From positions 4,335,501 to 4,399,500 of the forward strand of contig NZ_JAPEPX010000001.1 of the NCBI RefSeq assembly GCF_026339935.1: 64,000 bases of DNA. Direction: 5' to 3'. This stretch comes from Streptomyces sp. NBC_01551 (GTDB taxonomy: Bacteria > Actinomycetota > Actinomycetes > Streptomycetales > Streptomycetaceae). The position numbers and the translations under genes were made by a program. A model generated the notes under the pieces. That model saw nothing but the letters and a program-made list of their open reading frames with translations. It had not been told where the DNA came from and ran no database searches. Each line of letters opens with the position of its first letter. Within the stretch, counting starts at the first letter, position 1. Positions 44,911 through 56,208 of this stretch are shown here, in pieces.

Positions 44911-44999
44911 GGCGGGGCCCCGGCCAGGGCCGTAGGCCCTTCCTAGCGCGCTCGAACGCGAACCGTACGGGAAAGTTACGACTCTTCACCCCTTCCGGT

Positions 45000-45027
45000 G
45001 GCGCGACGGACAACCGTCCGTCGCGCC
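45000..45027 (+). terminator. hairpin terminator of the opp operon
   Basis: A perfect 12-bp stem (45000-45011 with 45016-45027) with an AACC loop lies 149 nt after the stop of the ATPase gene. Confidence 0.65.
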
Positions 45028-45101
45028 TTCGGCATATCCGCTTGAGTTCTTCCGCGGCGGGTCGCCGGACCCACGACGACCGCCTGAACGGGAGATCGGG
45101 G

Positions 45102-47084
45102 GTGCCACTCGTGCGGATCGGACTGCTCACCGAAGGTGGTTATCCGTATGCGACGGGAGAGGCGAGGCTCTGGTGTGACCGGCTGGTGCGCGGGCTCCCG
45201 CAGCACGAGTTCGAGCTCTACGCGCTGAGCCGCAGCGCCGAGCAGGAGGAGCGCGGCCGGGTCGTGCTGCCGGAGCACGTCACGCGGGTCTGGACCGCCC
45301 CGCTGTGGGCCCCGGCCGACGACGGCCGCACCTACAACTGGCGCGAGCGCCGCCGCTTCGCCGAGCGCTTCAAGGAGCTGGTCCGCGGCATCTGCGCGGG
45401 CGAGAGCGAACCCTTCGCCGCCGGGCTGTACGGACTGGCCGAACTCGCCCGGGAACAGGGCGGGCTGTACGCGGCGCTGCGCTCCGAGACCGCCGTGCGG
45501 GCCGTGGAGTCGGCCTGCCGGGCCCCGGGCGCGAGCCGCACCGTACAGACCGCGCAGGTCCCGGACCTGCTGGAGTTCGTGGACGAGCTGGAGCGCGCGC
45601 TGCGGCCGTTGTCCCTCGACTGGTACGAGGAGCTCGGCGCGGTCGACGTCTGCCACGCGGCCGCCGGCGGGATCGCGGCCCTCCCCGGACTGCTGGCCAA
45701 ACGCTTCTTCGGGGTGCCGCTGCTCGTCACCGAGTACGGGGTCCGGCTGCGCGCCCACTACCTGGAGCACTCCGCCGGGACCCGGCCCGCCGTGCACGCG
45801 CTGCTCGCGGCCTTCCACATCCGCCTCGCCGGCGAGATCTACGCCGAGGCGGACTTCCTGACCCCCGGCAACGCGCACGCGCGGCGCTGGCAGGAGCGGT
45901 GCGGGGCGCGCCGGGACCGGCTGCGGACCGTGTACCCGGGGATGGAGGCGGACCGATTCGCCACCGTCGGGGAGGCCACCGACTTCGGGGACCCGGACAC
46001 GCTGGTGTGGGTCGGCCGGGTGGAGCCGGCCAAGGACCTGATCGCCCTGTTGCACGCGTTCGCCGAGGTGCGGCGGGCCGAACCGAACACCCGGCTGCGG
46101 ATCTTCGCGACCGGGGTGGCGCCCGGCTACCTCGCCGACTGCCGGTCGCTGGCCGCGCAGCTCTTCCCGGACGAGGCCGCCGACGCGGTCACGGTGGGGG
46201 AGAACCCCGTCACCTTCGAGGAGATCGGCGGCCCCGAGGCGCCCTCGCCGGCCGACGCGTACGGGGCGGGGCGGGTGGTCGTGCTGTCCTCCGTCATCGA
46301 GGGCTTCCCGATCACGCTGGCCGAGGCCATGTTCTGCGGCCGGGCCACCGTGTCCACCGACGTGGGAGCGGTGTGCGAGGTGATCGGCGGCACCGGGCTC
46401 GTGGTGCCGCCGCGCAACCCCCGGGCACTGGCCGACGCCTGCCTGTCGCTGCTGCGGGACCCGGCCCGGGCGCAGCGGCTGGGCGCGGCCGCGCGGGCGC
46501 GGGCCCTGGAGCTGTTCACCGTCGAGCAGAACGTGGCCGCGTTCCGGGAGATCTACCTCCAGCTGCTGGCCCGGGGGCCGGCCCGGCCGGACGGGGAGGT
46601 CCCGTTCGCGCAGCCGCCGGAGGCGCGCGTCCCGGGGCACTGGACGACACCGACGTGGGCCGCGATCCCGGCGCCGACGCCGGGCGGCTCGACCCCGGAC
46701 GGCCCGGGGACGCCGCGGCCTTCGCGCGCGGAGCAGCTCGCGCGCACACCGCAGGGCCCGGGGCCGCGCACACCGCAGGGCCCGGCGCCGCAGGCCCCGG
46801 AGAGCGCTCGGACGCCGGGGGCCCCGGCCGCGCAGGCCGCGGGACCGCAGGCTTCGGGGGCGCCGGGAGCCTCGGCTCCGCCGGCCGTGCGGGGGCCACG
46901 GGCGTCCGCGTCGGGGACCTCGTGGCCGGCGCAGGGTCCGGCCTCGCGGGGAGCGGAGGCCGCTTCCACGCCTGAGGCCCCGGCTCCGCACGTCTCGGGG
47001 GCGCCCGGGGGCTCGGGTTCGTACGGGTCGGGATCGTGGGCGCCGCAGGCTTCCGCTCCGCAGGGGTCGGGGGCTGCCGTATGA
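45102..47084 (+). CDS. GT4 glycosyltransferase, PelF-like (DUF3492) with Pro/Ala-rich tail
   Basis: This 660-aa protein has a DUF3492-type N-terminal domain (RIGLLTEGGYPYATGEARLWCDRLVRGL, WYEELGAVDVCHAAAGGIAALPGLLAKRFF, LVTEYGVRLR) and a GT4 C-terminal domain with LVWVGRVEPAKDLIALLHAF and the E-x7-E motif EGFPITLAEAMFCG, where the Glu pair holds the donor sugar nucleotide. The same pair of domains makes up PelF, the Pel polysaccharide polymerase. The last about 140 residues are Pro/Ala/Gly-rich and disordered. GTG 45102 (ggag 7 nt upstream) is chosen, GTG 45111 is an alternative. The next gene overlaps by ATGA. Confidence 0.88.
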   Translation: MPLVRIGLLTEGGYPYATGEARLWCDRLVRGLPQHEFELYALSRSAEQEERGRVVLPEHVTRVWTAPLWAPADDGRTYNWRERRRFAERFKELVRGICAGESEPFAAGLYGLAELAREQGGLYAALRSETAVRAVESACRAPGASRTVQTAQVPDLLEFVDELERALRPLSLDWYEELGAVDVCHAAAGGIAALPGLLAKRFFGVPLLVTEYGVRLRAHYLEHSAGTRPAVHALLAAFHIRLAGEIYAEADFLTPGNAHARRWQERCGARRDRLRTVYPGMEADRFATVGEATDFGDPDTLVWVGRVEPAKDLIALLHAFAEVRRAEPNTRLRIFATGVAPGYLADCRSLAAQLFPDEAADAVTVGENPVTFEEIGGPEAPSPADAYGAGRVVVLSSVIEGFPITLAEAMFCGRATVSTDVGAVCEVIGGTGLVVPPRNPRALADACLSLLRDPARAQRLGAAARARALELFTVEQNVAAFREIYLQLLARGPARPDGEVPFAQPPEARVPGHWTTPTWAAIPAPTPGGSTPDGPGTPRPSRAEQLARTPQGPGPRTPQGPAPQAPESARTPGAPAAQAAGPQASGAPGASAPPAVRGPRASASGTSWPAQGPASRGAEAASTPEAPAPHVSGAPGGSGSYGSGSWAPQASAPQGSGAAV

Positions 47085-47983
47085 GCGTGGACGAAGCGGT
47101 GCCCGTGGCACCCCGGCGGCGGCCCGGCGGGGATCCCGTCAAGGCGTTGCTGCACCGGCACCGGGCGCTGTGCGAGCGGGCCGTGGACCCGTTGGAGATC
47201 GCCGCCGGGCTGGAGGCGCACGGGCTCACCGACCGCACCGCCGCGCGGTTTCGGCACCGGGACGTCTTCTCCCTCGCCGAGGAGCTGTACGCGCGGACCC
47301 CGCGCGGCGAGGCGCCGCCGGCCCCCGCCGGTGCGCCCGGCACCGGGACCCCGCGCGCGCTGCGCCGCCTCGGGTACGCCCTGCTGCCCGGGGCCCTCGC
47401 CCTGGGGGTGAGCGCCGCCGGGGTGCCCTGGGCCGGGCCCGTCGCGGTGGCCGCGGTGGTCGCCGCGCTGGTGTGGCCCGGCCGGACCGCCGGGGGGAGG
47501 TTCCCCGGGCTCGCGCACCTGCTCGCGGCGGTCACCGTCGGCTGGGCGGCGTACCTGCACGGCGCCGCCCTCGCCGTCTGTCTCGCGCTGGCCGTCGCGC
47601 CCGGATACCTGGCCGCCGCCGGGTACGCGGCCCGGGCCCGGCGCAGGCTCGCCGGGAGCCGGGCGCTGGAGGAGTTCGCCGCCGGGGCGAGGCCGCTGCT
47701 CTTCGGGGCCGTCGCCGTGTTCACCGCGGCCGCCGCGGGGGCGGCCGCGCTCGCCGGGGCTCCGCTCGCCGAGGCCGTGCCGCTCGCGGTGCTGCTGTTC
47801 CTGACCCGGCTGCTGCTCAGCCACGGAGCCCGCGGCGCCCACCGCAGGCCCGTCGCCGCCGCGCTGGCCCTCGCCCTGATCCCGGCGGCGGTGCCCGCGG
47901 CCGCGGCGGGGCTCCTCGTACTCGCCGTCCTCGCGCTGTCCCGCGCGTCGGCGCACGCACCCGACCGGGACGACCGGCCCTGA
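47081..47983 (+). CDS. polytopic membrane protein of the polysaccharide locus
   Basis: This 300-aa protein has a soluble N-terminal segment of about 80 residues (VKALLHRHRALCERAVDPLEIAAGLEAHGLTDRTAARF, with FRHRDVFSLAEELYAR) and then about eight hydrophobic helices to residue 285. The start overlaps the GT stop (ATGA), so it is co-translated. I recognise no family; the position fits a role in export of the polysaccharide, comparable to PelE/PelG, but the sequence shows no resemblance that proves it. Confidence 0.75.
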   Translation: MSVDEAVPVAPRRRPGGDPVKALLHRHRALCERAVDPLEIAAGLEAHGLTDRTAARFRHRDVFSLAEELYARTPRGEAPPAPAGAPGTGTPRALRRLGYALLPGALALGVSAAGVPWAGPVAVAAVVAALVWPGRTAGGRFPGLAHLLAAVTVGWAAYLHGAALAVCLALAVAPGYLAAAGYAARARRRLAGSRALEEFAAGARPLLFGAVAVFTAAAAGAAALAGAPLAEAVPLAVLLFLTRLLLSHGARGAHRRPVAAALALALIPAAVPAAAAGLLVLAVLALSRASAHAPDRDDRP

Positions 47984-48110
47984 CGACGCCGATGTCGCCC
48001 CCGTCCCCGTACCTGTCCCCGTACCCGTCCCCGTCCGCAAGCCGCCGCCCGACCTTCGGAGCCGACGCCGAAGCCCCGTACCCCCTACCCACCAACCAAG
48101 GAGAAACAGG

Positions 48111-48149
48111 ATGACCGGCCAGCCAACCAACCAAGGGGCCGCGCGATGA
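48111..48149 (+). CDS. 12-aa minicistron coupled to the epimerase gene
   Basis: ATG 48111 with a perfect Shine-Dalgarno (aaggag, 48099-48104) opens a 13-codon frame, MTGQPTNQGAAR, whose TGA overlaps the ATG of the epimerase (ATGA at 48146-48149). The epimerase has only a weak site of its own, so this mini-ORF probably serves to bring ribosomes to it. Upstream, 48001-48040 contains tandem gtccccgtacc-type 12-bp repeats. Confidence 0.5.
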   Translation: MTGQPTNQGAAR

Positions 48150-49186
48150 GGGTGCTGCTGATCGGAGCCAACGGATACCTCGGCCGCTACGTCGCGGACC
48201 GGCTGCTCGCCGACCCCGCCGTCCAGCTCACCGCGCTCGGCCGCGGTGACGACGCCGACGTCCGCTTCGACCTCGCCACCGGGAGCCCCGGCGCGCTCAC
48301 CCGGTTCCTCGACGCCGTCCACCCGGGCGTCGTCGTCAACTGCGCCGGCGCCACCCGCGGCGGCGCCCGGGAGCTGACCCGGCACAACACCGTCGCCGTC
48401 GCCACCATCTGCGAGTCGCTGCGCCGCAGCGGCTGCGGGGCCCGGCTCGTCCAGCTCGGCTGCGCCGCCGAGTACGGGCCCAGCCAGCCCGGGTCGTCCA
48501 CGGCCGAGGACGCCGTGCCCAGACCCGGCGGACCGTACGGCGTCAGCAAACTCGCCGCCACCGAGCTGGTGCTCGGCTCGGGGCTCGACGCCGTCGTCCT
48601 GCGGGTGTTCTCGCCCGTCGGGCCCGGCACCCCGGCCGGGTCCCCGCTCGGCCGCCTCGCCGAGGCCATGCGGCGGGCGATGCAGTCCGGGGACGGCGAG
48701 CTCAAGCTGAGCGGGCTCGGCGTGCAGCGCGACTTCGTGGACGTACGGGACGTGGCGCGGGCCGTGCACGCCGCCTCGCTCTCCGCCGCCCAGGGCGTCG
48801 TCAACATCGGCACCGGCCGCGCGGTCCGGCTCCGCGACGCGGCGGCCGTGCTCGCCCGGGTCGCCGGGTACGGAGGCTCCCTGCACGAGCTCGACGTACC
48901 GCCCGGCGGGGACCGGCAGCAGGGCGGCCACGGCCACGGCCACGGCCCCGGTCACGGCTACCCGGGGCGGGCGGCCGGCCTGGCCGCGATCGGCTCCCCG
49001 CGCTCGGAGGCGACGCCCGAGCAGCTCGCGGCCGCGCTGCCGCCCCCGTACCCCTACCCGGACGGCTGCGGCGCCTGGCAGCAGGCCGACGTGCGCACGG
49101 CCCGCGACCGCCTCGGCTGGCGGCCCCGGATCAACCTGGAGGAGTCCCTCGCGGACATCTGGATGGAGGCGGCGTGCCGCATCTGA
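48146..49186 (+). CDS. NAD-dependent epimerase/dehydratase
   Basis: This 346-aa extended short-chain dehydrogenase has the NAD-binding GANGYLG motif and the catalytic YGVSK (Tyr-x3-Lys) with the Ser in LGCAAEYGPSQ. It is likely to interconvert nucleotide sugars (UDP-Glc/UDP-Gal or the N-acetyl forms) to feed the GT4. A His/Gly-rich insertion (HGHGHGPGHGY) lies at about residues 272-282, which could bind metal. The spherulin gene overlaps its stop by 13 nt. Confidence 0.88.
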   Translation: MRVLLIGANGYLGRYVADRLLADPAVQLTALGRGDDADVRFDLATGSPGALTRFLDAVHPGVVVNCAGATRGGARELTRHNTVAVATICESLRRSGCGARLVQLGCAAEYGPSQPGSSTAEDAVPRPGGPYGVSKLAATELVLGSGLDAVVLRVFSPVGPGTPAGSPLGRLAEAMRRAMQSGDGELKLSGLGVQRDFVDVRDVARAVHAASLSAAQGVVNIGTGRAVRLRDAAAVLARVAGYGGSLHELDVPPGGDRQQGGHGHGHGPGHGYPGRAAGLAAIGSPRSEATPEQLAAALPPPYPYPDGCGAWQQADVRTARDRLGWRPRINLEESLADIWMEAACRI

Positions 49187-49926
49187 CCACCCCGCCGGGT
49201 GCCCGGCTGCCGGCCGTGGAGGCCGGCGGCCTGGGCTTCGGGATCCCCGGCTACGCGCACCCGCTGCTCGCCCCGGTGGAGTGGGCCGAACTGACCCGGC
49301 CCGGAACCCCGCTGCACTGGGCCGTGCTCAACGTCACGGACGGCCCGGGCGGGCGGCCCGACCCGCACTGCACGGAGGCGGCGGCGAAGCTCCGGGAAGC
49401 CGGCGGGACGCTGCTGGGCCATCTCGCGATGCGGGACGGGAAGCGGTCGTTCGGGGAGCTGGTCTCCGACGCCCACCGCTTCCTGGACTGGTACCGGGTC
49501 GGCGGGTTCTACCTCGCCGGCGCCCCGGCGGACCGGGAGGAACTGGACGCGGTGCGCCGGGTCGTGGACACCCTGCGGGGCCTCGGCGACGGGCTCCGGA
49601 TCGTGCTCGGGCACGGCACCCACCCGTACGCGGGGTACGCGGAGGCCGCCGACCAGCTGGTGACCTTCTCCGGGGCCTGGGCCGACTACCGGTGGTCGCA
49701 GGTGGCGGAGTGGACCGCCGAGTACCCGCCGGAGCGGTTCTGCCACCTCGTCCACGGAGTGCCGCGCACGCATCTGGAGGAGGCCGTGCGGATCGCCCGC
49801 TGGCAGGGCGCCGGGACCATCTGGTTCACCGACCGCAGGGGCGCGGGGGACCGGGATCCCTGGGCCTCGATGCCCGCGTACTGGGACGAAATCGTCTCAC
49901 GCATCGGACCGGGTGTCTCGGAATGA
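49174..49926 (+). CDS. spherulin-4 (GH135-like) family protein
   Basis: This 250-aa protein matches the spherulation-specific family 4 TIM barrel: GFGIPGYAHPLLAPVEWAELT, AVLNVTDGPGGRPDP, RVGGFYLAGAPAD, LGHGTHPYAGYAEAADQLVTFSG, HLVHGVPRTHLEEAVRIA, TIWFTDRRG. In the fungal Sph3 enzyme this family cleaves galactosaminogalactan. Here the segment that in active members carries acidic residues (recalled as FxDE) reads FYLAG, so catalysis is doubtful. There is no signal peptide, so it would act in the cytosol unless exported otherwise. GTG 49174 overlaps the epimerase stop. Confidence 0.83.
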   Translation: MPHLTTPPGARLPAVEAGGLGFGIPGYAHPLLAPVEWAELTRPGTPLHWAVLNVTDGPGGRPDPHCTEAAAKLREAGGTLLGHLAMRDGKRSFGELVSDAHRFLDWYRVGGFYLAGAPADREELDAVRRVVDTLRGLGDGLRIVLGHGTHPYAGYAEAADQLVTFSGAWADYRWSQVAEWTAEYPPERFCHLVHGVPRTHLEEAVRIARWQGAGTIWFTDRRGAGDRDPWASMPAYWDEIVSRIGPGVSE

Positions 49927-49989: not shown

Positions 49990-51168
49990 GTGTCGCTGCC
50001 ACCCCTGGTCGAGCCGGCTGCTGAGCTCACCGTTGACGAGGTCCGTCGGTACTCCCGCCACCTGATCATCCCGGATGTCGGGATGGACGGCCAGAAGCGC
50101 CTGAAGAACGCCAAGGTGCTGGCCGTGGGCGCGGGCGGCCTCGGCTCGCCCGCCCTCATGTACCTGGCCGCGGCCGGCGTAGGCACGCTGGGCATCGTGG
50201 AGTTCGACGAGGTCGACGAGTCGAACCTGCAGCGCCAGATCATCCACAGCCAGGCGGACATCGGCCGTTCCAAGGCCGAGTCTGCCCGTGACAGCGTGCT
50301 GGGCATCAACCCGTACGTCAACGTGGTCCTTCACGAAGAGCGGCTCGAAGCCGAGAACGTGATGGAGATCTTCAGCCAGTACGACCTCATCGTCGACGGC
50401 ACGGACAACTTCGCCACGCGCTACCTCGTCAACGACGCCTGCGTGCTGCTGAACAAGCCGTACGTGTGGGGCTCCATCTACCGCTTCGACGGCCAGGCCT
50501 CGGTCTTCTGGTCCGAGCACGGGCCGTGCTACCGCTGCCTGTACCCGGAGCCGCCGCCGCCGGGCATGGTCCCGAGCTGCGCCGAGGGCGGCGTGCTGGG
50601 CGTGCTCTGCGCGTCCATCGGGTCCATCCAGGTCACCGAGGCCATCAAGGTCCTCACGGGCGTGGGCGAGCCGCTGGTCGGCCGCCTGATGATCTACGAC
50701 GCCCTGGAGATGCAGTACCGCCAGGTCAAGGTCCGCAAGGACCCCGACTGCGCCGTCTGCGGTCCGAACGCGACCGTCAAGGAGCTCATCGACTACGAGG
50801 CCTTCTGCGGCGTCGTGTCGGAGGAGGCCCAGGAGGCGGCCGCCGGCTCCACGATCACTCCGAAGCAGCTCAAGGAGTGGATCGACAACGAAGAGCCGAT
50901 CGAGATCATCGACGTCCGCGAGATCAACGAGTACGAGATCGTCTCGATCCCCGGCGCGAAGCTGATCCCCAAGGGCGAGTTCCTGATGGGCACCGCCCTC
51001 CAGGACCTGCCGCAGGACAAGCGCATCGTCTTGCACTGCAAGACGGGTGTCCGCAGTGCGGAAGTCCTCGCGGTCCTGAAGTCCGCGGGCTTCGCGGACG
51101 CGGTCCACGTCGGCGGCGGCGTCATCGGCTGGGTCCACCAGATCGAGCCCGAGAAGCCGGTCTACTAA
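49990..51168 (+). CDS. moeZ: MoeZ adenylyltransferase/sulfurtransferase
   Basis: This 392-aa protein fuses a ThiF/MoeB E1-like adenylation domain (VGAGGLGSPALMYLAAAGVGTLGIVEFD, with RQIIHS), zinc-binding CYRCLYPE and CAVCGPN, and a C-terminal rhodanese domain with active-site Cys in LHCKTGVRSAE. It activates small sulfur carrier proteins (MoaD, ThiS, CysO) and transfers sulfur in molybdopterin, thiamine and thiosugar or cysteine synthesis. The GTG has ggag 5 nt upstream. A sigma-R-type promoter lies upstream. A 10-bp terminator follows (51179-51220). Confidence 0.95.
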   Translation: MSLPPLVEPAAELTVDEVRRYSRHLIIPDVGMDGQKRLKNAKVLAVGAGGLGSPALMYLAAAGVGTLGIVEFDEVDESNLQRQIIHSQADIGRSKAESARDSVLGINPYVNVVLHEERLEAENVMEIFSQYDLIVDGTDNFATRYLVNDACVLLNKPYVWGSIYRFDGQASVFWSEHGPCYRCLYPEPPPPGMVPSCAEGGVLGVLCASIGSIQVTEAIKVLTGVGEPLVGRLMIYDALEMQYRQVKVRKDPDCAVCGPNATVKELIDYEAFCGVVSEEAQEAAAGSTITPKQLKEWIDNEEPIEIIDVREINEYEIVSIPGAKLIPKGEFLMGTALQDLPQDKRIVLHCKTGVRSAEVLAVLKSAGFADAVHVGGGVIGWVHQIEPEKPVY

Positions 51169-51220: not shown

Positions 51221-52813
51221 TCACGCTCCGAGGGGTTCGGCCGGCACGGACGGGGTCGGCTGTGCGGGGCTCTGCGTCGCCGTGCAGACAGCGCCGGCGG
51301 CGGGCACCTTCCCGTCCAGCAGGTAGGAGTTCACGGCCGCCTGCACACAGGGGTCGCCGCTGTTGTACGCGCCGTGCCCCTCGCCCTTGTACGTGAGCTC
51401 CACCCCGACGCCGGGACCTAGCCGCTCCACCATGTTGCGGGCGCCCTCGTACGGGGTCGCCGGGTCCCCGGTGTTGCCGATCACCAGGATCGGCGCGGAA
51501 CCCGGGGCGGACACGTCCGGGGTCTCCCACGCGCCCGGGACCGGCCAGTCGGTGCAGCTCAGCATCGCCCAGCCGAGGAACTCCCCGAAGACGGGCGAGG
51601 CGGCGCGGAACGCCGACAGCTTGGCCTTCGTCTCCTCCAGCGTGTAGCGGTCCTTGGAGTCCGCACAGTTGATCGCCGTGTTGGCCGCGCCGATGTTGCT
51701 GTAATTGCCGTTCTGGTCCCGGCCGTTGAGTGCGTCGGACAGCGCCATCAGCAGCTGCCCCTGACCGCCCTCGGCCTCGTCCAGCCCCTGCTCCAGCAGC
51801 GGCCAGAGCTCCTGGGAGTACAGCGCCTGGGCGATGCCGTTGGTCGCGGCGGACTCGGTCAGCATCCGGTCGCCGATGCCCGGGATGGGCTTGGCGGCCA
51901 GCTCCTTCTGGAGCTTGATGATGTTGTCCTCGATCTCCTTGGCGGTGCTGCCCTGGAGCCGGCACTCCTCGCCCCGGTTCACGCAGTCCTGCGCCCAGTT
52001 GCCGAGCGCCAGCTGGAAGCCCTTGGCCTGGCCGAGCGCCCCCTCCTCGGAGGTCTTCGTCGGGTCCACGACGGCGTCGAAGACGGCCCGGCCGACGTTC
52101 TTGGGGAACAGGTGGGCGTAGACCCCGCCGAGTTCGGTGCCGTAGGAGATCCCGAAGTAGTTGAGCTTCTCGTCGCCGAGGGCCTGGCGGATCCGGTCCA
52201 GGTCGCGGGCGGCGTTCTCGGTGCCGACGTACGGCAGGAGCGCGCCGGAGTTCGTCCGGCAGGCCTGCTGGTACCGCTTGATGCCGTCGACGTAGGCCTT
52301 CTCCTGCTGCGGGGTCGCGGGGGTGTTGTCCTGCGCGTAGTACGCGTCGAGCTGCTTGTTGTCCTCGCACTTGACGGGCGCGCTGGCGCCGACGCCCCGG
52401 GGGTCGAAGCTGACCAGGTCGTAGCGCTCGCGCAGCGCGTCGTACTCCTTGGCGGCGCCGGGGAGCGTACTGATCCCGGATCCGCCGGGCCCGCCGAAGT
52501 TGAAGACGAGCGACCCGAGCCGCTTGTCCTTGTCCCGCGCCTTGGCCCGGATCAGCGCGAGAGGAATCGTTTCTCCTTCGGGGTCGGCGTAGTCGAGCGG
52601 GACGTGCAGCGTGGCGCACTGCCAGTCCTTCGGCGGCGCCTCCCCGCCTCCCTCGGCGGGGGTCGGCGCCTCGCACTCCCCCCACTTCAGCGGCTCGGCC
52701 CCCTCGGTGCCGCCGGCCTTGGGTTTCTTCTCCCCGCCACTGTCGGAACACCCGCCGACCAGCCCCACGGCGACGACGACAGCAACGGCGGCCCGCAGCA
52801 GATTTCTCGACAT
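51221..52813 (-). CDS. secreted alpha/beta hydrolase lipoprotein (S33/TAP-like)
   Basis: This 530-aa protein has a lipoprotein signal (LLRAAVAVVVAVGLVGGC, with lipidated Cys) and the tripeptidyl aminopeptidase-like alpha/beta-hydrolase layout: FNFGGPGGSG (oxyanion), SFDPRGVGASAPVKC, nucleophile elbow YFGISYGTELGG, a lid, Asp in VIGNTGDPATPYEGA and His in GEGHGAYNSGDPC. It probably trims peptides outside the cell. ATG 52813 (MSRNLLRAA). The 480 nt on its 5' side are low-complexity (see the repeat at 53015). Confidence 0.92.
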   Translation of the reverse strand: MSRNLLRAAVAVVVAVGLVGGCSDSGGEKKPKAGGTEGAEPLKWGECEAPTPAEGGGEAPPKDWQCATLHVPLDYADPEGETIPLALIRAKARDKDKRLGSLVFNFGGPGGSGISTLPGAAKEYDALRERYDLVSFDPRGVGASAPVKCEDNKQLDAYYAQDNTPATPQQEKAYVDGIKRYQQACRTNSGALLPYVGTENAARDLDRIRQALGDEKLNYFGISYGTELGGVYAHLFPKNVGRAVFDAVVDPTKTSEEGALGQAKGFQLALGNWAQDCVNRGEECRLQGSTAKEIEDNIIKLQKELAAKPIPGIGDRMLTESAATNGIAQALYSQELWPLLEQGLDEAEGGQGQLLMALSDALNGRDQNGNYSNIGAANTAINCADSKDRYTLEETKAKLSAFRAASPVFGEFLGWAMLSCTDWPVPGAWETPDVSAPGSAPILVIGNTGDPATPYEGARNMVERLGPGVGVELTYKGEGHGAYNSGDPCVQAAVNSYLLDGKVPAAGAVCTATQSPAQPTPSVPAEPLGA

Positions 52814-53293
52814 GGCTCCATCCTGCGTTCCCCGGCTGCGCCCCGCCCGCGCGCTGACCCATTCGGGGCCGCCCGGACGCGCCGGCCAACGGCTGGGCGG
52901 CGGCGATTCCGGCGCCCGTGCCCGCCCCCCCCGCGACCGGCCCCACCGACGCCCGAGACGTGGGTGCACCCCGCACTCCACCCGGGCGAGGCCCCGAACC
53001 GCCCCACGAACCCCGCCGCAGCCGCAGCCGCAGCCGCAGCGGCGCCGGACCCGAACCCGGACCGGACCCGGACCCGGACCCGGAGCGAGAGCGGGACCCG
53101 GACCCGGAGCGGGAGTCGCAGTCGCAGAGGGAGTTGCGCCGCAGCCGCAGCTCGCCGGAGCGGGAGCCGGTGCTGCAGCCGCAGCCGCGTCGCAGCCGGC
53201 GGGAGCCGCAGCCCGACCGGGAGCCCCGCCGCAGTCGCAGTCGGAGCGGGAGCCGGCGCCGGAGCCGGGAGCTCCCCCCACAACCCCGCGGAG
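52814..53293. repeat. period-6 low-complexity region
   Basis: This 480-nt gap between two minus-strand genes has no convincing gene. From 53015 to about 53270 it consists of six-base-period tracts: (gccgca)n at 53015-53039, (ggaccc)n at about 53047-53097, and gagcgg/gagtcgcagtcg-type mixtures beyond. Every frame on both strands is nearly stop-free, so long ORFs (for example 52918-53325 plus) are by-products of the repeat. It must carry the promoter of the hydrolase gene. Confidence 0.7.
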
Positions 53294-56208
53294 CTAAATG
53301 GCTTCCTTGCGGGTCAGGAAGTTGAACGACACCCACCCCGGCAACACCGGCAGCCAGAACGTCATCAGCCGGAACAACAGCACCGCCGAAATAGCGACCT
53401 CCTTGTCCAGCCCGGCCGCGATCAGCCCGAGCGTCAGGGTGGTCTCCACCGCGCCCATGCCGCCCGGCGTCGGCGCCGCCGACCCCAGCGCGTTGCCGGC
53501 CAGGAACACCACCGCGATGCTCGCGTAGCTGATGGCCTGCCCGCCGCCGAACGCCCGGATCGACGCGTCCAGGCACATCACGAAGCAGCCCGTCAGCAGC
53601 AGCATCCCGCCGATGCCCGCCGCCAGCTTCTGCGGCCGCTGGAGCACGTCCAGCATGCGCGGCACGACACCGGCGAACAGCGCCCGGACCCGGGTCGCGA
53701 CGAACTTCCGCAGGAACGGCACCGCCGTCACCACGAGGACCAGCACCGCCACCGTCAGCAGACCCGCGATGACCGTCCTCGACGGGGTCATCTCCGGGGT
53801 CTTCTCCGTACCCGTCAGGTACCCGAACGCCAGCAGCAGCAGGATGTGGCTCGCCAGCCCGAACAGCTGCGAGGCGCCGACACTGGCGACCGCCAGCCCC
53901 GGCCGGACCCCGGAGCGCTGCAGGAACCGGGTGTTCAGCGCCACGCCGCCGACCGCGGCCGGCGCCACCAGCTTCACGAACGACCCCGCCACCTGCGCGA
54001 GTACCGTCCGCAGGAACGGCACCCGCTCCGGCACGAAGCCCAGCAGGCTCGCCGCCGCCGCGAAGTAGGTCAGGACCGAGAAGGCCAGCGCCGCCCCGAC
54101 CCAGCCCCACCGCGCCTCGCTGATGATCGTCGCGAAGTCCACGTGGGCCAGCTGCGTCAGCAGGAAGTACGCGCCGAACGCGCCCGCGATGAACGAGACC
54201 AGCGTGCGCGGCCGGATCCGCTCCAGCCGGGCCGGCTCCACCGGCGCCTGCGGGCGGATCAGCAGCACCTGCTGGCGGATCTGGCTCAGCAGATCCTCCT
54301 CGCGGGCCCCGTCGAGCGCGTCGTCCAGCGCCCTCTTCTCGGCCTTGCGGTCGACGGCCGGGCTCGTGTCGGAGCCCGCCGCCTCCCGCGCGGCCTTCGC
54401 CGCCCGCGAGGACTCCAATACGGCTTCGCGCTGCCGGTCGGCCCGCTCCCGGGCCAGCCTGCGCAGCGTCGCCCGCGTGGAGCGGCTCAGCGCGATCGGC
54501 TGGAGCAGCGGCAGGCAGTCCGCGACCGCGTCCGGGCCGAGCACCGACACCGCCGAGGCGACCGCCCTCTCCGCCCCGACCCGCAGGCCCAGCGTGGTCA
54601 GCAGCTGCGCGATGTCCATCCGGAGCACCAGGTCCCCGGCCGCGATCTCGCCGCCGCGCAGGTCGGTGAGGATGACGTTGCCGGAACGATCCACCACCAG
54701 GGCGTCACCGGTCAGCCTGCGGTGCGCGATGCGCCGCGACTGCAGCGCCCGTACCTGCTCCCAGGCGTTGCGGGCCAGCCCGTCGGTGATCTCCTCGTCG
54801 GGCAGGGAGTCCAGGGAGCGGCCGCCCAGGTGCTCGTACACCAGCATCACGGCGTCCGGGCCGAGCTCGGAGGTCGCGATCAGCTTCGGCGCGTTCGCCC
54901 CGGCCGCGATGGCCGCGTACGCGAGCAGCGCCTCCTGCTCCAGCGCCTGGCGCAGCGAGGAGTTCAGGCTGCGCCGGGTGGTGATGCCGCGCAGGGTGAG
55001 GCGGCGCCAGACGCGGTAGAAGAACCCGTGCGCCTGCTGCTCGCGGTCCACGACCGTGACGTCGAGCGGTGGCCCGTCCTCCAGGGTGACGTGGTAGCTG
55101 CGCCCCCGGTCGGTCTGCTCGGAATCGGATCCGTCGGGTGATTCGGCGCGCATCGCGCTGACCGGCTGGAAGCCGACCCGGCGCAGGCCGGCCAGGAGGT
55201 TCTGTCCGGTGGGCCGGACGTTCGGCGAGCCGACGGCGTACAGGGTCCCGTACGCGACGCTCCAGCCGATCAGCACGGTCAGGATGATCGAGAAGGGTGT
55301 GGTGTACCCACTGACCAGCATCGCGAAGGCGTCGAGCAGCAGCACCAGCCACAGCGCCACGCGCCAGCGCGGTCTGCGGGTCATCCCGACGGCCGTCATG
55401 TACGCGATGACGGGCGCGAGGTATCCGTGCACCGGGTCGGTGAGCGCTCCGCCGGCGCCGGCGGAGCGGGTGAGGGCGTCCTGGATGCTCTGGGGGGCGG
55501 CCTCGGAGACCCACAGGTCGGTCGCGAGGGTCACCCCGTGGGCGAGGACGGCGGCGAGCACGCCGTCGGCGATGCGCAGTCCGTCGCGTTTGATCAGCCG
55601 CTCGATGGCGAAGGCGACGGGGACGAGGAGCACGGCGATGCTGGAGACCAGCCCGGCAACCTTGATCAGCAGGTCCGGCGCCTGGCCGGTGCCCTTGCTG
55701 ATGTCCTCCTCCAGGCCGACGGTGGTGCCGTGGGCGAAGGCGGCGATGGCGAGGACGACGGCGATGCCGAGGACGCCGACGAGCAGCCGGACCAGGTCGG
55801 AGGGGCGGTGGACGCGGGCGGCGAGCAGCGGTTCGTCGACCTCGACCTGATCGGCGGCCGTCGGGGCGTGACCGTGGGGCCGCTCCGGGCCCTCGCCGTG
55901 GTCGTGGTCGTGGCCCTGATCGCGGGCGTCGTCGACGCGGGCGTCGTCGCCGTCGCCGTTGTCGCCGCCGGCGCGCGCGGCGGCGCCGTGGTCGGGCTGC
56001 GCGGGCGGACCGCCCGGCAGCCGCTCCCGGCCGCCGCGCCGGGGGCCGGGCCGCCGGGCCGTGCGGAGGCGTCACCGCCCCCCGGGGCCGGGCCGCCGGC
56101 CTGCGGCGGCGGGGTGTCGGAGGGCGCGGCGGAGCCGTCGTCTGGGCGCGCGCCGTCGTTCCTCGCCGCGCCGTCCGGAGGGCTCACACCCTGCTCCTTC
56201 GCCTTCAC
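53294..56208 (-). pseudogene. kinase-flippase membrane fusion, N-terminus out of frame
   Basis: The C-terminal half is an MprF/LPG-synthase-like flippase domain of about eight helices (LVSFIAGAFGAYFLL, APAAVGGVALNTRFLQRSGV, NALGSAAPTPGGMGAVETTLTLG). The middle is a kinase-like domain (VYEHLGGRSL, IAHRRLTGDALVVDRSGNVILTDLRGG) and the N-terminal half has further helices. The frame is open only from 56071, with no usable start before GTG 55633, which would cut off a conserved helix (LVRLLVGVLGIAVVLAIAAFAHG at about 55730-55800). The natural N-terminus (GTG 56208, VKAKEQGVSPPDGAARND) lies in another frame; one missing base near GGGGG 56041-56045 would join them into about 972 aa. Sequencing error is likely. 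Confidence 0.8.

Follow-up and report, generated by a model that had tools for sequence, protein, structure and literature searches.

A conserved four-gene locus beside moeZ in Streptomycetaceae, probably derived from a galactosaminogalactan/Pel-type exopolysaccharide operon

We analysed a 64,000-nucleotide stretch of the genome of Streptomyces sp. NBC_01551 (contig NZ_JAPEPX010000001.1, positions 4,335,501 to 4,399,500; hereafter the window). At 45102..49926 on the + strand it carries four genes, present and placed as in the initial annotation of this DNA, that encode a PelF-like family 4 glycosyltransferase homologue (GT4), a membrane protein, a short-chain dehydrogenase/reductase (SDR) and a spherulin-4 protein. 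Loci of this four-gene type are called A-type here and galactosaminogalactan-type clusters GAG-type; L handles denote fetched loci (named Streptomyces, family, outside comparisons) and G handles sampled genomes. The window locus is probably a one-time derivative of a GAG/Pel-type exopolysaccharide operon that was repurposed, became largely pseudoenzymatic and was retained under selection. Sequence comparison established its common descent with GAG-type clusters and the single origin of its GT4 clade, the loss of key catalytic residues by GT4 and by the spherulin, a Ser-to-Cys exchange in the SDR, a shorter membrane protein, the absence of GH114 from the locus and a conserved upstream element not shared by GAG-type loci. 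It likewise placed all four genes under purifying selection in the pairs tested (ratio of nonsynonymous to synonymous substitution, dN/dS, < 0.5).

GT4 matched the DUF3492 profile (PF11997) with 111 bits against a cut-off of 23.3 bits, in addition to GT4 domains, and only just passed the NCBIfam PelF model (NF038011; a marginal 102 against a cut-off of 100 bits). These matches, and its grouping with PelF/GAG-type enzymes, uphold the PelF-like DUF3492-GT4 identity proposed initially. The reference was an alignment of ten diverse PelF/GAG-type enzymes, including four PelF encoded next to pelG, with 42 invariant columns, of which leave-one-out rows kept 89–100% and held-out GAG-type rows 39–42. 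The window GT4 keeps 29 of the 42, also the mode of 86 A-type rows (range 19–32). Lost are the glycine-rich loop (G20E, the second Gly, with V21A and S22R), a histidine (H212Y) and, among others, E218A, R219H, N260A and N279P; kept are H185, R306, K311, E400 and E408, the last four belonging to the donor site. The GGVS loop and the TEHG histidine are both found in all eight outside comparison rows and both lost in the window, TEHG aligning with TVHH of GT4 7qsg. Position 212 is Tyr in 69/70 Streptomyces and 17/17 family A-rows, and G20 is left in only one of each set (1/70 and 1/17, the replacement being mostly Glu or Asp); all 20 GAG/PelF rows have His and Gly at these positions. Both glutamates of the EX7E motif (E400 and E408) occur in 68/70 Streptomyces and 16/17 family A-type rows, the EX7E stretch being missing from the GT4 of L152, and some new residues have become fixed in the N-domain, position 139 being Cys and position 279 Pro in 70/70. 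The second Gly of the GG in the loop we take to be Gly16 of PimA. In PimA, pyrophosphate is reported to be held by Gly16, Arg196 and Lys202, with an essential role for His118 and with Glu274 and Glu282 as the conserved glutamates (PMC9883506, PMC4506291). The C-terminal tail of the window GT4 (46570–47084) is a Pro/Ala/Ser/Gly-rich low-complexity stretch of ~170 amino acids, and homologues vary from ~525 to 657 amino acids in length.

The SDR had been taken for an NAD-dependent nucleotide-sugar epimerase; it does contain an Epimerase/extended SDR domain (Pfam Epimerase, 127 bits), but is not GalE-like and has Cys for the catalytic Ser. A GalE/Uge3-type 4-epimerase was rejected on the galE profile score (33 against a cut-off of 262 bits) and on the nearest structure, the reductase Rmd (2pk3), which was the best PDB match. 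GxxGxxG and YxxxK are present in 109/109 A-type rows, and the catalytic Ser position, four residues before the Tyr of EYG, is Cys in all 109; a later count gave Cys in 81/81 Streptomyces and 17/18 family A-loci. This position presumably corresponds to S124 in GalE numbering. Among 14 GAG-type rows (L148 counted twice), all six giving an SDR match have the catalytic Ser. The SDR is the best conserved of the four proteins, 82–96% identical to that of the window across the genus genomes having it. The spherulin, as its initial assignment to the spherulin-4 (GH135-like) family implied, has a Spherulin4 domain (72.5 bits) and the Sph3 fold, and no signal peptide was seen by eye. Residues D166, N202 and E222 of Sph3 (AcSph3 numbering) are A115, G146 and S166 in the window protein; none of 81 Streptomyces spherulins has both D166 and E222, and other residues are newly invariant, e.g. 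W174 and S175 in 98/98 A-type spherulins.

The membrane protein has six hydrophobic segments and no Pfam match, in agreement with its first description as a multi-helix membrane protein without a recognised family. Its N-terminal motif recurs at 39–49% in 10 of 11 GAG-type loci, L032 giving no match. Counted from this motif, GAG-type proteins measure 426–499 amino acids (715 in L039) with 8–11 hydrophobic segments, and A-type proteins mostly 281–381 (three of 423–572) with 4–9. A PelG-like exporter was considered and rejected for want of Pfam, NCBIfam or fold support; the structural model is weak (pLDDT 70), and no conclusion was drawn from the fold search, which gave no match. PelG (PF16933) had no match in the source genome, and the control, Thermotoga maritima, gave one.

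In a maximum-likelihood tree of 52 GT4 rows, whose outgroup has long branches flagged by the program, the 32 A-type rows form one clade (100/100; stem 0.6) that is sister to GAG-type L148 (100/98). L143 is the first to branch within this clade and is intermediate in character: its GT4 has lost the His and the loop residues VS, and spherulin N202 is already G, with the SDR Ser and the spherulin D and E still there. Simple Nei-Gojobori estimates for eight chosen close pairs, at high GC content of third codon positions (GC3), gave dN/dS values of 0.18–0.37 for GT4, 0.22–0.46 for the membrane gene, 0.04–0.16 for the SDR and 0.10–0.24 for the spherulin; moeZ, the gene next to the locus, gave 0.03–0.11.

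The four genes are linked throughout much of the genus and in the family, well beyond the single genome of the initial annotation. In a sample of 37 genus genomes (the source genome and 36 others), 32 have all four in one order and on one strand within ~6.5 kb; G001 (79% complete) yielded none of them, the fragmented assemblies G008, G017 and G028 only pieces of the locus, and G010 only spherulin and GT4 fragments. The same sample included 24 genomes from outside the family, and none of these has the four-gene locus. Among 80 named Streptomyces loci, which overlap with the G genomes (e.g. L123 and G031), 11 are cut upstream by contig ends; GT4, SDR, spherulin and moeZ follow in order in all 69 untruncated loci, where the membrane gene was recognised in 61 at first and in seven more without composition adjustment, L094 giving a partial match. 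Spherulins of named Streptomyces are 93–95% identical to that of the window. In a wider draw, the spherulin was detected at an expectation value (E) of 1e-60 in 93 of 101 genus genomes (not reached in G001, G010, G028, G180, G187, G199, G206 and G227) and in 54 of 121 genomes drawn from the family, spanning 8 of 17 genera, one of the 54 (L148) being GAG-type. Twenty of the 29 family hits outside the genus were fetched for gene order, and 17 of these show the order GT4-membrane-SDR-spherulin-moeZ. Of the other three, L148 is GAG-type and includes GH114, moeZ being missing from the fetched stretch, and L149 and L153 have the SDR and spherulin beside moeZ, intact GT4 being gone. L153 retains ~19 N-terminal GT4 residues and the upstream box.

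The upstream element consists of this box and a hairpin or dyad (Table 1), and lies a median of 131 bp (105–279) from the GT4 start. Among loci with a GT4 start, the full box pattern occurs in 65 of 70 from Streptomyces, the window included (missing from L085, L090, L099, L104 and L117), in 17/17 family A-loci and in 0/13 GAG-type loci. The 10-mer TTCACCCCTT is present in 70/70 Streptomyces loci, and the genome holds one copy of the box at up to three mismatches. In 57 of the 83 sequences found (50 distinct rows), 95.7% of the cells of a 15-pair stem are paired, against 93.6% in column shuffles (0/500 as high) and 24.0–59.2% in slid controls; changes on both sides affect six of the 15 pairs, in 27 cells against 11.0 in shuffles. 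The RNA fold of 44971–45104 has a z of -3.7. G-U cells outnumber A-C cells in the stem (42 vs 19), and the evidence therefore leans towards an RNA hairpin, a DNA dyad being the alternative. Rfam gave no family at gathering score for the element, only sub-threshold matches. Developmental promoter patterns (consensus sequences for WhiG, BldN, BldD, WhiA and others) showed no clear excess over shuffles upstream, and no sigma-70-like site was found there. GTTAC and TTCAC at 11-nt spacing are reminiscent of OmpR-family regulator sites.

The kinship to GAG and Pel systems seen in the initial annotation was confirmed, as GAG-type counterparts exist for GT4, SDR and spherulin and, at 10 of 11 loci, for the membrane protein; GAG-type loci with the complete set show the same relative gene order. 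Bacterial GAG-type operons have been described with an Agd3-like deacetylase, GH114 and spherulin-4 (PMC7229062). Unlike the window locus, GAG-type clusters carry GH114 (L031, L032, L034, L126, L130 and L148); they also encode a deacetylase-like protein and, in several cases, a nucleotidyltransferase and an SDR of GDP_Man_Dehyd type. The catalytic residues of GT4, SDR and spherulin are retained in these clusters, and the upstream element is missing from them. In Aspergillus the cluster reads uge3-gtb3-sph3-ega3-agd3, Sph3 being the sole fungal sequence compared; Sph3 is reported as an active membrane-bound hydrolase that works outside the cell (PMC12054363), in contrast to a window spherulin with neither a signal peptide (by eye) nor D166/N202/E222. 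The locus has the PelF/DUF3492-family GT4 in common with Pel systems, but PelG was not detected in the source genome and the GGVS and TEHG of all four compared PelF are lost. The degenerate SDR domain reported for Gram-positive PelD (PMC7112168) is similar to ours by description, both being nucleotide-sugar SDRs that belong to a polysaccharide operon and have changed residues in the active site; it is fused there, whereas the window SDR is a separate, highly conserved protein.

The genome contains three DUF3492 genes, namely in the window locus, in locus B (L031, 1.65 Mb) and in locus C (L032, 6.12 Mb). Loci B and C are fuller clusters, each encoding a weakly Agd3-like protein, GT4, spherulin and GH114. 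Locus B also has a homologue of the membrane protein, where locus C has an open frame without a motif match; locus C further encodes two SDRs, one of GDP_Man_Dehyd type and a second that is 49% to that of the window, and a nucleotidyltransferase. In both, GT4 and spherulin/GH135 look intact (the locus C spherulin is of E222 type), and GH114 (PF03537) occurs in the genome only there; the genome's polymer clusters likely lie outside the window locus. The GH114 proteins of both loci have a lipoprotein-like signal by eye. The Agd3 assignment is weak in B and C (Pfam below cut-off, and no PDB match for the locus B protein); the S. californicus deacetylase-like protein has no Pfam match, a Thermus relative scores above the Agd3 cut-off and a Kocuria one below it. 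No deacetylase (CE18/Agd3) was found among the four window genes or the scanned neighbours, which were listed at E up to 1e-5, so that a distant one could have escaped. A GAG-type GT4 (E up to 1e-30, among the best 25 candidates per genome) is present in 20 of the 37 genus genomes. Fifteen of the 17 without it have the full window-type locus, which thus seems independent of the GAG-type cluster; among these 17, G031 carries a piece with SDR and spherulin at another site. Plasmid NZ_CP070247 of S. californicus (L126) bears a named, annotated GAG-type cluster, flanked on both sides by non-ribosomal peptide synthetase genes. On the Kocuria rosea plasmid NZ_CP126484 (L130), the cluster lies between two transposase genes with an identical protein accession, which suggests that it is mobile.

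Streptomyces are the main antibiotic producers, and leads on function come from S. coelicolor, where moeB is given as SCO5178 (PMC4340878); by gene order, the window genes would then correspond to SCO5174-5177. SCO5174 (transferase), SCO5175 and SCO5177 are listed as >8-fold up in the second compared with the first mycelium, SCO5176 being outside that table of >8-fold genes (PMC3610822). Mutants in SCO5174 are reported to make less actinorhodin (PMC6585502), and the locus offers a starting point for asking why. We found no paper on the locus as a unit among open-licence PMC papers, which does not establish its absence from print.

For the preferred derivation from an exopolysaccharide operon, we envisage that the operon settled beside moeZ in an ancestor within the Streptomycetaceae and has since been kept under selection. 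GT4, with its donor site kept and N-domain disabled, would be a binding and not a catalytic subunit on the cytoplasmic face, and so would the spherulin, which keeps the fold and several invariant pocket residues without an acid/base. The membrane protein would anchor both, and the SDR would remain as a catalytic or NAD(P)H-sensing core. In the second mycelium, such a complex may respond to a nucleotide sugar or to an intermediate of envelope glycans and feed into envelope maturation, antibiotic production being a downstream effect. The bolder proposal, which we put forward only tentatively, is that a whole exopolysaccharide operon was converted once to a membrane-anchored pseudoenzyme complex, in which a non-transferring glycosyltransferase and a non-cutting hydrolase report nucleotide-sugar/wall-glycan status via the SDR and so control entry to the reproductive, antibiotic-producing mycelium. 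If the enzymes are indeed retired yet conserved, it would be unusual for three members of the same pathway to have lost catalytic residues, and the L143 intermediate and the intact-looking paralogues in the same genome would serve as built-in controls. Several points weigh against the preferred derivation. Residue loss is no proof of inactivity: other N-domain residues may serve in a GT4, and Cys can sometimes replace Ser. D166 is retained in 45/81 Streptomyces spherulins, and the locus is not universal, given the spherulin counts in genus (93/101) and family (54/121). The SCO5174-5177 orthology is presumed from gene order, and complex formation, location and sensing are inferences.

Among other explanations, it is possible, if rather unlikely, that the operon still transfers sugar to another acceptor (lipid, protein or short oligosaccharide) through a changed N-domain, with the Cys-SDR tailoring the nucleotide sugar and no long polymer being made. 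The retained R306, K311, E400 and E408, the fixed Cys 139 and Pro 279 and the strong conservation of the SDR would all suit such an activity, but the GT4 His, described as essential in PimA (PMC9883506), is Tyr in 69/70 and 17/17 rows, the loop Gly is mostly Glu or Asp, and in L149 and L153 the SDR and spherulin stay beside moeZ without an intact GT4. We regard as improbable a minimal, active GAG/Pel-like surface polymer system of PelF, exporter, epimerase and GH135, for which homology, a gene order as in GAG-type clusters and the narrowly passed PelF model speak. The initial annotation had seen the same three activities together in the locus, but GH135 residues, the SDR Ser and GT4 N-domain hallmarks are lost; as the SDR is not GalE-like, no PelG was detected in the genome and GH114 is confined to loci B and C, these four proteins are unlikely to make a hexosamine polymer on their own. 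Catalytic residue loss and the partial loss of the locus in G010, L149 and L153 could also be read as a decaying, functionless remnant. This we reject as very improbable in view of the dN/dS values of the eight pairs (< 0.5 for each of the four genes), a gene order held in 69/69 untruncated named loci and the conserved upstream element, and the newly invariant W174 and S175 also argue against it.

Table 1. Positions in the window of the four genes, the upstream element and the adjoining moeZ-type gene.
Feature	Position	Strand	Remarks
Conserved box GAAAGTTACG-N4-TTCACCCCTT	44971..44994	+	upstream of GT4
Hairpin/dyad with AACC loop; perfect 12-bp stem 45000-45011 / 45016-45027	44997..45030	+	
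GT4 (PelF-like DUF3492 glycosyltransferase homologue)	45102..47084	+	GTG start; gggag at 45090
Membrane protein: conserved N-terminal motif, then 6 hydrophobic segments	47081..47983	+	
Extended SDR with GANGYLG and YxxxK, Cys for catalytic Ser	48146..49186	+	
Spherulin-4 (GH135-fold) protein	49174..49926	+	
ThiF-rhodanese (MoeZ-type) gene, directly downstream	49990..51168	+	syntenic marker, outside the claimed system

The four genes had been described as overlapping or coupled, which holds for the GT4 end and membrane gene start (4-bp overlap) and for the SDR and spherulin genes (13 bp) but not for the membrane and SDR genes, which lie 162 bp apart. GC3 is 0.92–0.97 across the four. Automatic names met for the locus proteins include PelF, spherulation-specific protein and phage tail protein; these imply functions that the residues do not support and call for caution. 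Oligopeptide-type ABC transporter genes lie 5' of the GT4 gene. Of two divergent neighbours, 51221–53281 encodes a TAP-like alpha/beta hydrolase, whose called frame includes an N-terminal extension of low complexity, and 53294–55633 an LPG-synthase-TM membrane protein.

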